Part shown: in pieces, positions 18,722 to 24,724 of the stretch
How positions within the stretch are numbered: the stretch's first letter is position 1
How the letters are laid out: each line of letters begins with the position of its first letter
Origin: Methylomonas sp.
Lineage (GTDB): Bacteria; Pseudomonadota; Gammaproteobacteria; Methylococcales; Methylomonadaceae
NCBI GenBank assembly: GCA_002928965.1
Contig: PERU01000031.1
Coordinates: 1-42,568 of the forward strand
DNA: 42,568 nt
Reading direction: 5' to 3'
The notes under the pieces: model-generated
The model's input: only the letters and a program-made list of their open reading frames with translations
Database searches by the model: none
What the model was told of the DNA's origin: nothing
Program-made: the position numbers and the translations under genes

Positions 18722-20071
18722 TCAATCAAAAAAATTTGTGATCCCTAACAATCTGATACCCCGCTGCTGATGGTAGCCGATCAACGGCATGATGCCTTTT
18801 TGGAGTATGTTATTGGCTTGCGCTTCAGTCAAGATGACTTCCGTGCCCGGCTGTAATGTTGACTCGCCTGCCTTCTCAAAACTAAACGCTGGCGTATCGC
18901 CAAAAAACTGCGCATCGCCCGATACGTCGTCTTCGGTCATTCTCAACAAAGTTCTGGCGGCCAAAAATGCGGCATTCCCCCATAACAGTTCCAGCATTTC
19001 AGGGGGTACGGCACATTCTTCAAACGCGAATGTATCTATTGGATCACGCTTGTTGCCATAGGGTAGCCGCAATAAATACCGAGGATATACCAGCATCAGC
19101 GAGTTAGTTTCGTTAATAGGGCCAACCTCCAGGTCAGGCAATAACTGCAAGAAGGCCTGATCAACGGTCGCCAGGAATTGCCCGTTACAGGCATCGGCCA
19201 GATTAGCGCAATACGCCATTAACGCATTATCTTCCGCTCCACCGGAAAAGCTGTAATCACCCACCAGCAACACATTCTGTTCAGCATCGGATTTTTGAAT
19301 GTGCTGTAACAGGATTTGAGAAAACGCCTGAGGGTCTATTTTAATCTCGGTTGATAATTCTATTTGACCCATGTCCAGTAGATAAAAGCTGTGCCGCTCA
19401 GCAGCCTCTTCATTCAATAACCCATCGGTGCCGCGCCAAAGCGCTTCAAGAGCTTGAAACAGTGGATTATGCAAAATGTTCCGGGCAATCTGACTAACGG
19501 TTGTATCGATGATTGCAATCAACTGTTGACTCTGCGGTTGCATGGTCTGAAGGACATGCGGCGCCACCATGGTCTTTATGAAACCCTCGAGGCTAGCTGT
19601 TGTACTGAGCTGTGTTTCAGGTACTTTTCCTAATAAACGTTGCAGCATGTCGCTCTGACTTTCCACAACATTTGTCGAGTCAACAAGGTCAATTGCAGCT
19701 TCGGTTGATAAAAATGCCTGAATTTTGGCTGTAGCCTGCGCGGCGGTAAGCGGGTTTTGTAATTGGGCTTTCAGGAGCAATAAATCATTAATCATCGTGA
19801 CTTTATGCAGCCAAGCATCCGGGTGAAAATCCTCCAATGCTGCAAAAGTCAGGGATATGCCCGTATCAATTTCGACCCTGGGTGCCATTTCGGCCATCAC
19901 CTGTTCAAACGTATCCCGATCAATTTTGTGAATTTTGCAGGGTGTTCCTGGGTTATCGCTAGCCCCTGAGAAACACCCCAAAATGTAAATCCGGTACGGC
20001 CTGTCAGGATTGGCTTTCAACTGTGCAGTTCGGGTCGTAAAGTCCAACGAAAAATCAACTCTGCCAGACAT
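18722..20071 (-). CDS. Orphan fused TssB-TssC-like contractile sheath protein
   Basis: The 449-residue product looks like the two type VI secretion sheath proteins joined in one chain. Residues about 1-105 resemble TssB: VDFSLDF, PYRIYILGCFSG, IDRDTFEQVMAEMAPRV, LTFAALEDFHPD. Residues about 185-449 resemble TssC: NPLFQALEALWRG, LLVGDYSFS, YPRYLLRLPYG followed by DPIDTFAFEE, then LLWGNAAFLAARTLL. In a full system TssB is about 165 and TssC about 495 residues, so this fusion is shortened, mainly in the linker and C-terminal parts. No other type VI gene is nearby. GGAG lies six bases before the ATG. Family resemblance is by eye; an actual sheath role is unproven. Confidence 0.75.
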   Translation of the reverse strand: MSGRVDFSLDFTTRTAQLKANPDRPYRIYILGCFSGASDNPGTPCKIHKIDRDTFEQVMAEMAPRVEIDTGISLTFAALEDFHPDAWLHKVTMINDLLLLKAQLQNPLTAAQATAKIQAFLSTEAAIDLVDSTNVVESQSDMLQRLLGKVPETQLSTTASLEGFIKTMVAPHVLQTMQPQSQQLIAIIDTTVSQIARNILHNPLFQALEALWRGTDGLLNEEAAERHSFYLLDMGQIELSTEIKIDPQAFSQILLQHIQKSDAEQNVLLVGDYSFSGGAEDNALMAYCANLADACNGQFLATVDQAFLQLLPDLEVGPINETNSLMLVYPRYLLRLPYGNKRDPIDTFAFEECAVPPEMLELLWGNAAFLAARTLLRMTEDDVSGDAQFFGDTPAFSFEKAGESTLQPGTEVILTEAQANNILQKGIMPLIGYHQQRGIRLLGITNFFD

Positions 20072-21682: not shown

Positions 21683-24463
21683 CTACTCGTCAACATCCAG
21701 CTCTTCAGCAGCCAGTTTTTTACCCGGCAAATAATTGGGTGCCACACTGATTAAAATAGTCAGGAAAGTGGCTAGATAGGGTACTGCTTGCACAGCCAAT
21801 ACTGCAACCCACAATCGCCCGCTAGTGTTGTCGAATTGCGGCTCCATTCGCATCGCCACGATACCTGCGATTAACAAGGTCAGTAAGAGAATTTCCTGCC
21901 AGATAACCAATAACCCGGCAATCAATGGGCCCTGGGCTTCATATTTCGGAGTGCGCATGAAGGGTTTACCCGAGGTGAACAAACCTTGCAGAGTGCCGCG
22001 CGCCACCGTGTGCGTCAGCGACAAGCCGGCCAATGCAGCCCCCATCGCTTGCAGGATTGAGCAAGCCACCCGCGCTTTATACAACCACAACCCTCGCCCC
22101 ACCTTGAACACAAACAAACCGATAGTCGGCAACAGGAAGGCATTGATCGGTAATTCGCTATGCAATGGATTGAGTACTAATAGCGTGGTCAATACTAAAC
22201 TGGCGCCGGTAAATAACAAGGCTAAAGCATCGGAAAACCAAGGCAACCAACCCGCCACAAAGTAATATCGCTGCGCAGGTGTCAGCAATGATTTTTTGTT
22301 GGGTAGAAAATGTCGCCAATGCTTTTTGATAATTTGCATGGCGCCATACACCCAACGGAAACGTTGCGTCATATAGCCGGAGAAGGTATCCGGCATCAAG
22401 CCACGTCCAAACGATTCTTTGCAGTAAACCGAATCATAACCGGCCTCATAAAGACGCAGACCCAATTCGCTGTCTTCGCAGATACACCACTCCCCCCAAG
22501 CGCCAACTTTTTCAAACGCTGACTTGCGGACCATGGTCATGGTGCCATGCTGAATGATGGCGTTATATTCGTTGCGTTGCACCATGCCGATGTTAAAGAA
22601 TCCGGCATATTCCCAATAACACATGTCTTTAAAAGTGCCTTGGTGGGCGTCGCGATAATCTTGTGGGGATTGCACGAAACCGACATTTTCCTGATCGAAA
22701 TATGGCACCATCGCTTTCAACCAATCCGGGTTCAAAATGTAATCGCTATCGATTACCGCGATGATCTCCGCGTCTTCAGCGGTATTTTCCAGTGCGTAGT
22801 TAATGGCCCCAGCCTTAAAACCGGGCCAGTTATCCAGATGGAAAAAGCGAAATTTTGGACCCAAGCGATCACAATCTTCCGACACAGGCCGCCAAACCTC
22901 TGGATCTTTGGTGTTGTTATCCATTACCAGCACTTCGAAGTTTGGGTAATCCACTTTGGCCAACGCATTCAAGGTTTTACGCACCATTTCAGGTGGTTCG
23001 TTATGAATCGGCAAATGAATGGACACTTTTGGGTATTTAAAATCGGCACTGGGCGTTAACGGTGTAAACGTGCGACGCCCCTTGCGATGCCACAACACCT
23101 CAGCCAATTCAAGACTTTCCGTTAACAATACCAAAATCGCCATGGCCTGCATCATTAACAGAATGCTCCAAAACACCACGGAAAAACTGGTTTGATACTG
23201 GGCCGCAGCAATGGAAGCTGACCAGAACAATACCGAGGCCGCCAAATTGGCTACGATGCCGAACAACAACTTACCCGGTAATTTCAGACTTTTACGGGTA
23301 AACAAAAACGCCGACATCAAGATAACGCTAAGTAAAGCGGCACCCGTCGCAAAATTGCGCCACATCGGATTGGCAACCACTTCACCTTCCATCGGGAATT
23401 TAGGTTGGCGATCCGCATTAAATAAACCCCAATAGGCACCGGCAGTACCTTCAAGTTCGATTTTCCAGGGCTGGTCGAACGCCTCGATAACATAGTAAAT
23501 AACGTTTTCAGCCGTGGCCCGATTCAGGAAAGCCCGTAAAAACTTGGCTTCGTTAACCAGCGATGCAGAAGCACTTTTCTGTGGAGGCCCATCAGACGGC
23601 CAACCGGTCTCGGTAATTACAATCGGCTTGTTAGGGTATTTTTGCTGCAATTCATAAAACCGCTTAAATACATAATCAACCGCAGCATACCCTTCTGCGC
23701 CGGGTGCTTTATCGACTGGCACGTTCTCCCAGTAAGGCAGGATATGTACACCGATGTAGTCCACCTCTTCAACCAATGCGGGATTCGCTTCCCAAATATC
23801 CCAGGTTTCTGATGTACTGACAGGCTTCCAGGTACGTTTTTTGACTTCGCGGATGTAGTCGATCAGCTGCGAGGCTTTTTCAGCTACTTTGACTTTAACC
23901 TCGGTTTCAATTTTGTCTTTGATGTCCTGCTCGCTCAATTGGCCCTTGAACTGTTCGGTAATTTGATCGGCAATCGGACCAGCAAGTTTGGAACGGGCTC
24001 TCAATAAGGATTCGTTGCCTACCAGAGTTCTGACGATGGTTTTAGGGTATTGATTACTTAAACTGATCAGACTTTCAATATCACGGCGATTTTTCTCTTC
24101 AATTTTCAGCCTGTCCTGTTCGGTGGTTGTGTCATCGAACAGATCAATCCAAGCCCCCATGGCCAGATGCATGTTGTTTTGAGCCGCAATCTCAGGCACC
24201 ACTTCCATACCTTCCAATGAGGTATAGGTTCTGATTGAGTGCACTTTGTCTGATAACAAGGCCAGATCTTCTTGAACCTGTTCGCGAGTGGGATAATTTT
24301 TCAGTTCGGGATTGAAGTCACGGCGGGTGCCATTATAGGTAACCCCCATCATGGTGCTATTCCAGGACGGCAACTGTAAAGGATTGTTCACGTAAGACCA
24401 GATGCCAACGTTGAGAACAACCAAAACGATTAAAGTAAATAAAGTGGCTAATTTAGCTTTCAT
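21683..24463 (-). CDS. GH17-GT2 fusion membrane protein, NdvB-like beta-glucan synthase
   Basis: A 926-residue protein in three parts. A membrane segment (about 5-25) leads into a periplasmic GH17-like domain (about 35-360) with VGNE (acid/base Glu151) and VITETGWPS (nucleophile Glu285). Two helices (about 375-440) lead to a cytoplasmic family 2 glycosyltransferase with VMDNNTKDPEVW, DSDYILNPDW (DxD), CEDSELGLRLYEAGY and QRFRW (the Q-x-x-R-W motif of processive synthases). Further helices follow to the C-terminus. This matches NdvB-type proteins of Pseudomonas and Azotobacter that make and remodel beta-1,3-glucans. A charged insert sits at about 165-212 in GH17. Start is ATG 24463, or TTG 24472, which has GGAG four bases upstream. 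Confidence 0.88.
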   Translation of the reverse strand: MKAKLATLFTLIVLVVLNVGIWSYVNNPLQLPSWNSTMMGVTYNGTRRDFNPELKNYPTREQVQEDLALLSDKVHSIRTYTSLEGMEVVPEIAAQNNMHLAMGAWIDLFDDTTTEQDRLKIEEKNRRDIESLISLSNQYPKTIVRTLVGNESLLRARSKLAGPIADQITEQFKGQLSEQDIKDKIETEVKVKVAEKASQLIDYIREVKKRTWKPVSTSETWDIWEANPALVEEVDYIGVHILPYWENVPVDKAPGAEGYAAVDYVFKRFYELQQKYPNKPIVITETGWPSDGPPQKSASASLVNEAKFLRAFLNRATAENVIYYVIEAFDQPWKIELEGTAGAYWGLFNADRQPKFPMEGEVVANPMWRNFATGAALLSVILMSAFLFTRKSLKLPGKLLFGIVANLAASVLFWSASIAAAQYQTSFSVVFWSILLMMQAMAILVLLTESLELAEVLWHRKGRRTFTPLTPSADFKYPKVSIHLPIHNEPPEMVRKTLNALAKVDYPNFEVLVMDNNTKDPEVWRPVSEDCDRLGPKFRFFHLDNWPGFKAGAINYALENTAEDAEIIAVIDSDYILNPDWLKAMVPYFDQENVGFVQSPQDYRDAHQGTFKDMCYWEYAGFFNIGMVQRNEYNAIIQHGTMTMVRKSAFEKVGAWGEWCICEDSELGLRLYEAGYDSVYCKESFGRGLMPDTFSGYMTQRFRWVYGAMQIIKKHWRHFLPNKKSLLTPAQRYYFVAGWLPWFSDALALLFTGASLVLTTLLVLNPLHSELPINAFLLPTIGLFVFKVGRGLWLYKARVACSILQAMGAALAGLSLTHTVARGTLQGLFTSGKPFMRTPKYEAQGPLIAGLLVIWQEILLLTLLIAGIVAMRMEPQFDNTSGRLWVAVLAVQAVPYLATFLTILISVAPNYLPGKKLAAEELDVDE

Positions 24464-24724
24464 TTCGAGCAAGAAACTCCAAACTATGAAGAAGTGTGAA
24501 TCAAAAAGTTGTGCTTTAAAATTCGATGGTAATTGACTACTGACAATCCCTTTCAGTAATTGCAGTTTAGTCTAATTTTGTTTGGCAAGCTTTAACCATA
24601 CAAAACTCGCGCATAAAAAACCCTGCCAAACCCAGCCCCGGCAAAACAACAATCCAAGAGGCATTAGCCTGAAGTTTGACTGTGTTTGCTTAGGTCTGGC
24701 TTAGAGCAGGGTAGGTTGGAAATA

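Follow-up and report, generated by a model that had tools for sequence, protein, structure and literature searches.

What does a gene that encodes parts of both sheath proteins of a type VI secretion system do in a place where no other gene of such a system is found? The question is raised by a 42,568-nucleotide stretch of DNA from Methylomonas sp. (contig PERU01000031.1 of assembly GCA_002928965.1; "the window" below means this whole stretch), in which one gene of 449 codons joins a TssB-like and a TssC-like part. We conclude that the fusion is very probably an accessory protein of type VI secretion. With a likelihood that we place a little short of even, it would be a one-chain, non-polymerising mimic of the TssB-TssC protomer, acting in trans with the canonical system and tuning the ends and the turnover of its sheath. 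An earlier note on this DNA knew of no characterised role for such an orphan, and we found none in the literature either (open-licence papers only; other prior reports may exist).

The VipA domain and then the VipB N-terminal domain follow each other in one open frame on the minus strand. Pfam T6SS_VipA matches residues 4-120 (E-value 1.6e-11, 44.6 bits versus a cut-off of 24), and the match to the VipB N-terminal domain starts at residue 183 (E-value 6.2e-29, 101.4 bits versus a cut-off of 27); solved TssC and TssB chains were also matched by the product in a sequence search. This bears out the coordinates, the order of the parts and the chain length given in the earlier note, and the four TssC blocks quoted there, including LLVGDYSFS, YPRYLLRLPYG and LLWGNAA, are all present in the product. 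The note had named the lack of a profile match as fatal to its proposal, an objection that falls away because both parts pass the curated cut-offs. It had missed the minus strand, the missing C-terminal domain of TssC and a canonical system on other contigs. A reading frame on the plus strand was rejected, as it contains many stops. The product stays below the NCBIfam equivalog cut-offs for TssC (TIGR03355, 95.3 versus 271.5 bits) and TssB (TIGR03358, 42.5 versus 97.25 bits), and it is 26% identical to the TssC of its own genome over 288 residues. Conserved TssC core blocks and the middle-layer fold are common to the fusion and the canonical sheath. An artefactual join of neighbouring tssB and tssC genes was rejected, because the single frame recurs in dozens of relatives and adjacent tssB-tssC pairs show a stop in the same profile search.

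By alignment, the TssC-like part stops at about TssC residue 391-393, and the gpW/gp25-like C-terminal domain (PF18945, VipB_2) is absent from the product in a Pfam scan up to an E-value of 10. The TssC of the same genome has this domain beside its VipB domain. The loss extends to the family, which we studied in 43 fusion members, a chosen subset of all those found that includes the window protein; four further members (L139, L140, L213 and L215) were added for the domain scans. PF18945 was found in none of these 47 (0/43 and 0/4; Pfam scan, E-value 0.01). A VipA domain was found in all 43, and that of L213 is below the cut-off (20.9 versus 24 bits). The N-terminal arm has an alternation score of at least 3 in 39 of the 43 members, with a mean of 3.60 compared to 2.02 (SD 0.10) for shuffled sequences. 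Sequence and monomer model together describe a chain in which the protomer's middle layer and an N-terminal strand of TssB type are retained and the inner acceptor domain is lost, with a linker motif where TssC has its ClpV-docking helix.

The gpW/gp25 inner domain of TssC is the site where subunits join by a "handshake" (described in the available portions of PMC5807055). The corresponding set of acceptor strands, C-terminal donor strand and N-terminal donor strand is incomplete in the fusion, as the inner domain is missing and only the N-terminal donor-type arm is retained. Since the missing domain holds the strands that join subunits, no tube would be expected from the fusion alone, and very probably it does not build a sheath by itself. 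The earlier note had suggested a self-standing minimal contractile or tubular structure, a sheath that would assemble from the fusion only. This suggestion is not supported: acceptor strands and TssC donor strand are found in none of the 47 members, and the genome has genes for a canonical sheath. In the alignment to known structures, R2 pyocin rows reach only residue 283 of about 385, and rows such as 6rc8 and 9ezm come nearer to the end. A search of a phage collection with the fusion gave two partial matches only. We regard a self-assembling device as most improbable.

The canonical system is divided over two other contigs. Contig C22 carries tssA, tssB, tssC, hcp, tagJ/impE, tssE, tssF, tssG and tssH/clpV, and contig C25 has matches to tagH, tssK, tssL, tssM and PppA. 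Intact, separate tssB and tssC genes are thus present alongside the fusion, which is therefore an extra gene and not the sheath. When 211 open reading frames of the window (at least 50 amino acids) were searched against 49 reference proteins of type VI loci (E-value threshold 0.001), the fusion alone gave a match. This comparison bears out the earlier note in that no other type VI gene was found in 42 kb, and the genome search that it proposed found a canonical system elsewhere. The closest named relatives are Methylomonas strains, and the gene has homologues in Methylomonas sp. LW13 (L102) and Methylotuvimicrobium buryatense 5G (L103). "Orphan", the word used there, fits the position of the gene in this genome and not necessarily its role, since in several other lineages members of the family are found within type VI operons or close to them.

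The presence of the fusion tracks type VI genes in the genus and family samples. In the genus sample (n = 37), 24 genomes contain a full-length fusion, all with a separate TssC match, compared to 6 of the remaining 13. In the family sample (n = 201), the fusion was found in 42 genomes among the matches listed, a number that includes a copy split over two frames and left as such (G058) and a partial frame (G124). TagJ/ImpE was detected in 42 of 42 fusion genomes versus 29 of 159 others, and the fusion in none of the 17 genomes of this sample with a sheath match and no TagJ (Fisher test, uncorrected for relatedness, 1.8e-24 overall and 2.7e-6 among sheath-positive genomes). Among the matches listed for the class sample (n = 369), 17 genomes have the fusion and 16 of these a separate TssC match; TagJ is present in 12 of the 17 versus 23 of 369 overall (6.5e-13, again uncorrected for relatedness). 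Two pieces were not counted, one of 101 residues in G067 and one at a contig end in G422 (class sample), and the G424 fusion is present as two contig-end pieces. The phylum sample (n = 398) contains at least three genomes with a single-frame fusion (G000, G907 and G692), and the other full-length matches among those listed have a stop inside and look like adjacent tssB-tssC pairs. Because at most eight, four and three candidates per genome were scored in the family, class and phylum samples, respectively, counts of absence are soft. The fused core occurs in Alphaproteobacteria, Betaproteobacteria and some Gammaproteobacteria. Overall the family seems to be uncommon, and relatives of this genome seem to have it frequently. 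The broken G058 copy (L128, 1870-3355) consists of two overlapping frames, and vgrG and tssH lie on the same stretch.

In a FastTree phylogeny of the TssC N-terminal domain (60 sequences retained from 96 after thinning), one branch of length 0.88 and support 1.0 separates the 43 fusions from 17 TssC proteins. Midpoint rooting made the TssC proteins, and not the fusions, one clade; the tree therefore establishes the split and not its direction. A recent fusion of the genome's own tssB and tssC was rejected, since a single deep branch separates the whole set of 43 fusions from the whole set of 17 TssC proteins. By this tree, the fusions are one old paralogue family. Ten pairs of fusion genes gave dN/dS ratios of 0.12-0.24 in eight cases and 0.45 in one (dS 0.02), and one pair was saturated. 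These values bear on the idea that the gene is a relic, or has a duty unrelated to type VI secretion. Its orphan position speaks for this idea, as does the search of the 42-kb window, in which no second type VI gene came up. Against it stand the low ratios in eight of the nine unsaturated pairs of relatives, the co-occurrence with type VI genes, and the family members in or near operons of other lineages, and we consider it very unlikely.

Gene neighbourhoods were surveyed in 20 stretches from 19 genomes, 11 of which were chosen for a TssC match on the same contig. The fusion occurs together with a core tss gene in ten stretches, all from these 11 genomes. In two named betaproteobacterial metagenome-assembled genomes (L116 and L118) it lies directly, or with one small open reading frame between, before tssK-tssL-tssM. 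It is found downstream of tssK in Eleftheria (L140), next to tagH in G692 (L213), and between tssH and vgrG in Qingshengfaniella, Leisingera and Ruegeria; some further fusions are near tssA or vgrG. The earlier note had asked whether a complete locus elsewhere uses the fused gene as its normal sheath, and in the operons surveyed here it is an extra gene and not the normal sheath. The frequent proximity to vgrG, PAAR or tssK genes speaks for a factor of the baseplate, the spike or cargo loading, for which the fold of the sheath would serve as a docking platform. Gene order is variable, however, the gene is a distant orphan in Methylomonas-type loci, and such a factor gives no account of the ClpV pattern described below, so that we find this role quite unlikely. 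On the Eleftheria plasmid, six genes about 13 kb past the fusion gene (L140, 33202-35301) are annotated as RebB-family R-body genes. The roseobacter operons have an "ion transporter" gene between tssH and the fusion (L139, 12135-13016; L141, 10899-11753; L142, 8763-9620).

The link to ClpV, the unfoldase of the system, comes from the linker between the two domains. In the family profile, its motif MLQRLLGK pairs with LLDEIM of VipB, which forms the docking helix for the ClpV N-domain. The available portions of PMC4239648 distinguish a ClpV class with an aliphatic groove (Leu6/Ala86), paired with LLDEII in TssC, from an Arg6/Asp87 class, paired with EFASLL in HsiC1 and with TagJ; in the latter the groove is reported to be blocked, and the N-terminal helix of P. 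aeruginosa TssC to be dispensable for ClpV1 binding. A ClpV could be classed for 34 of 47 fusions (here the 43 with L139, L141, L213 and L215), the other 13 being left out. Using position 6 of ClpV and a stricter linker pattern for the final classes, LLDxx-type linkers were found in all seven fusions from Leu6 genomes (G353, G561, G455, G268, G584, G692 and G907) and in none of 27 from Arg6 genomes. Only under a looser earlier sort did G103 (linker ERLLDR) count as LLD-type and G518 (Arg6/Asn87) as uncharged. G584, which was checked as a test, and G692 and G907, which were fetched once the pattern had been seen, all fit at position 6. In a tree built from the two folded domains only, leaving out the linker, ClpV class and linker type each change twice. 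The type of linker motif is associated with the class of ClpV groove, an association that may reflect only one or two events and from which docking is predicted.

The principal competing explanation builds on the same pattern. The fusion could be a ClpV adaptor or decoy only, whose linker binds the ClpV N-domain and keeps ClpV off the sheath or primes it, with no sheath contact. The match of linker type and groove class is what this predicts, as is the alignment of the motif with the ClpV helix of VipB. It leaves the retained TssB-type arm and the full front TssB domain of the roseobacter form unexplained, however, and the ClpV pattern is possibly one event; we judge an adaptor or decoy without a sheath partner to be unlikely.

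The retained arm, middle layer and ClpV-type motif, combined with the lost acceptor domain, favour instead a role in ending, marking or recycling sheaths, which is the protomer mimic proposed above. This comes near to the repurposed scaffold that the earlier note had offered as its other suggestion. Where the sheath has an open site, the N-terminal strand would enter the acceptor that a real TssC presents there. No further subunit could then be added, because the fusion offers neither an acceptor nor a TssC-type donor strand. The linker motif would be presented to ClpV, and the net effect would be that sheath ends or fragments are marked or capped and that the timing of disassembly by ClpV is tuned. 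We give even chances to an action through ClpV, and see docking on the sheath by the arm as possible, with a probability somewhat under one half. A stricter version of the mimic, in our opinion a rather unlikely one, is a dedicated sheath terminator, one whose donor strand enters the last real subunit, that stops growth by offering no acceptor, and that carries a ClpV tag marking exactly that end for disassembly. If true, it would be a counterpart of the phage tail terminator built from a sheath protein, and the roseobacter form would be one leashed to a real TssB.

Several observations weigh against the protomer mimic. The fetched stretches of the eight genomes that were not chosen for a nearby tssC gave no recognisable core tss gene (one of them, L130, carries vgrG), and the fetched flanks, which vary in length, of 19 loci from Methylomonas and methanotrophs related to it (L095-L113) gave no recognisable type VI gene. 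The link to TagJ is not absolute, as the class sample demonstrates. One metagenome-assembled genome (G430) has the fusion with neither a separate TssC match nor a VipB_2 match. The saturated dN/dS pair is the only one that contains the window gene, and purifying selection is thus shown for the relatives. As to ClpV, the protein of this genome is of the Arg6/Asp87 class, with the groove reported as blocked (PMC4239648, available portions), which weakens the idea that the fusion here is simply a ClpV recruiter of the LLDEII type. G584 has Leu6 and Asp, not Ala, at position 87, and so fits at position 6 only. All seven Leu6 cases fall inside a ten-member clade (support 0.97) whose decisive inner node has a support of 0.19; because its interior is so weakly resolved, a single change of the two traits is possible. 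The G430 fusion itself lies at L148, 1394-2923; its genome is either incompletely assembled or carries a fusion with no canonical sheath.

The features of the gene are collected below. It is flanked by genes for a radical SAM/SPASM protein and a SAICAR synthetase, which we take to be pqqE and purC, respectively. Elsewhere in the window, a Uma2-family gene (putative restriction endonuclease, PF05685; 16422-16985, plus strand) lies between a pqqC-like and a pqqD-like gene. A 929-residue protein (21683-24472, minus strand) has both a match to glycosyl hydrolase 17 and a family 2 glycosyltransferase part. Three open reading frames close to the contig end (40627-42413, minus strand) have no Pfam match at an E-value of 0.001 and fall in the 2-kb bin of lowest GC content (0.413).

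Features of the fusion gene and its predicted product (positions in the window)
Feature	Position	Strand	Remarks
TssB'-TssC' pseudo-protomer gene (putative)	18722..20071	minus	449 aa + stop; ATG at 20071
N-terminal arm, residues 1-19	20015..20071	minus	alternating-hydrophobic TssB-type strand MSGRVDFSLDF; disordered in the monomer model (pLDDT <50)
VipA/TssB-like domain, residues 20-120	19712..20014	minus	Pfam PF05591 over residues 4-120
Inter-domain linker, residues 121-178	19538..19711	minus	pLDDT mostly low; short helices 139-146 and 162-169
Linker motif MLQRLLGK, residues 142-149	19625..19648	minus	at the position of the TssC N-terminal ClpV-docking helix
VipB/TssC N-terminal (middle-layer) domain, residues 179-449	18725..19537	minus	terminates where the gpW/gp25 domain would start

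To our knowledge, it is only partly understood what brings the growth of a sheath to an end and at which point ClpV starts. Both questions could be probed with a natural protomer that has retained the parts for docking and lost the one for polymerising, and the pattern seen with ClpV opens the way to a direct binding test. The database label of the relatives, "contractile sheath large subunit", hides the family.

The nearest described protein is TssCL, a long roseobacter form published in 2022, reportedly by Suria et al. No function is assigned to it in the available portions of that paper (PMC9515649), which reports it, for the genomes analysed there, from Alphaproteobacteria only and suggests that it is recent. 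Like the fusion, TssCL combines a VipA' and a VipB N-terminal domain in one chain and occurs beside intact tssB and tssC, in genomes that carry an H1-like system, with low identity to the cognate sheath proteins (PMC9515649). It differs in its length of about 1,684 residues, in a second VipA domain close to the TssB of its own genome, and in its position inside the cluster (PMC9515649); the window fusion has 449 residues, a single VipA domain without the long linker, and an orphan gene. In our data the long form is confined to Rhodobacterales (L139, L141 and L142), with the order TssB, long acidic repeat linker, fusion. The N-terminal TssB stretch kept in this form binds TagJ in P. aeruginosa (PMC4239648, available portions). 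In these proteins (L139, 12985-16650; L141, 11746-16710) the linker has many acidic repeats of the DDVLAGL/LDDLLG kind, and there is an acidic tail. The short form described here extends the TssCL family, whose fused core also occurs outside Alphaproteobacteria and is not necessarily recent. Neither the short form nor its presence outside Alphaproteobacteria, its depth, the family-wide loss of the inner domain or the association with ClpV was found in the open-licence papers searched.

Other known proteins share single traits with the fusion. Canonical TssB/TssC (VipA/VipB) have the same middle-layer fold, from which the fusion differs as one chain without the gpW/gp25 domain. TssC40 (Atu4340) of Agrobacterium is likewise a diverged, non-redundant extra sheath homologue beside a normal TssC; it is, however, a separate TssC-type protein (PMC3702570, available portions), and the fusion is not a separate chain of the TssC40/ImpD type, as it lacks VipB_2. 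Two VipB_2 matches per genome were seen in three of the genomes studied here (G353, G455 and G561), with tandem TssC genes in G353 and G455, and the fusion has none. TagJ/HsiE1 is, like the fusion, an accessory of the same class of system, and links the sheath, through the N-terminus of TssB, to ClpV (PMC4239648, available portions). TagJ has a TPR and ImpE fold, and the fusion instead mimics the sheath. The single-chain sheaths of phages, pyocins, AFP and PVC are full length, with inner domain and arms, and differ in this from the fusion. In contractile phages and R-type pyocins, sheaths are not recycled (PMC5807055, available portions).
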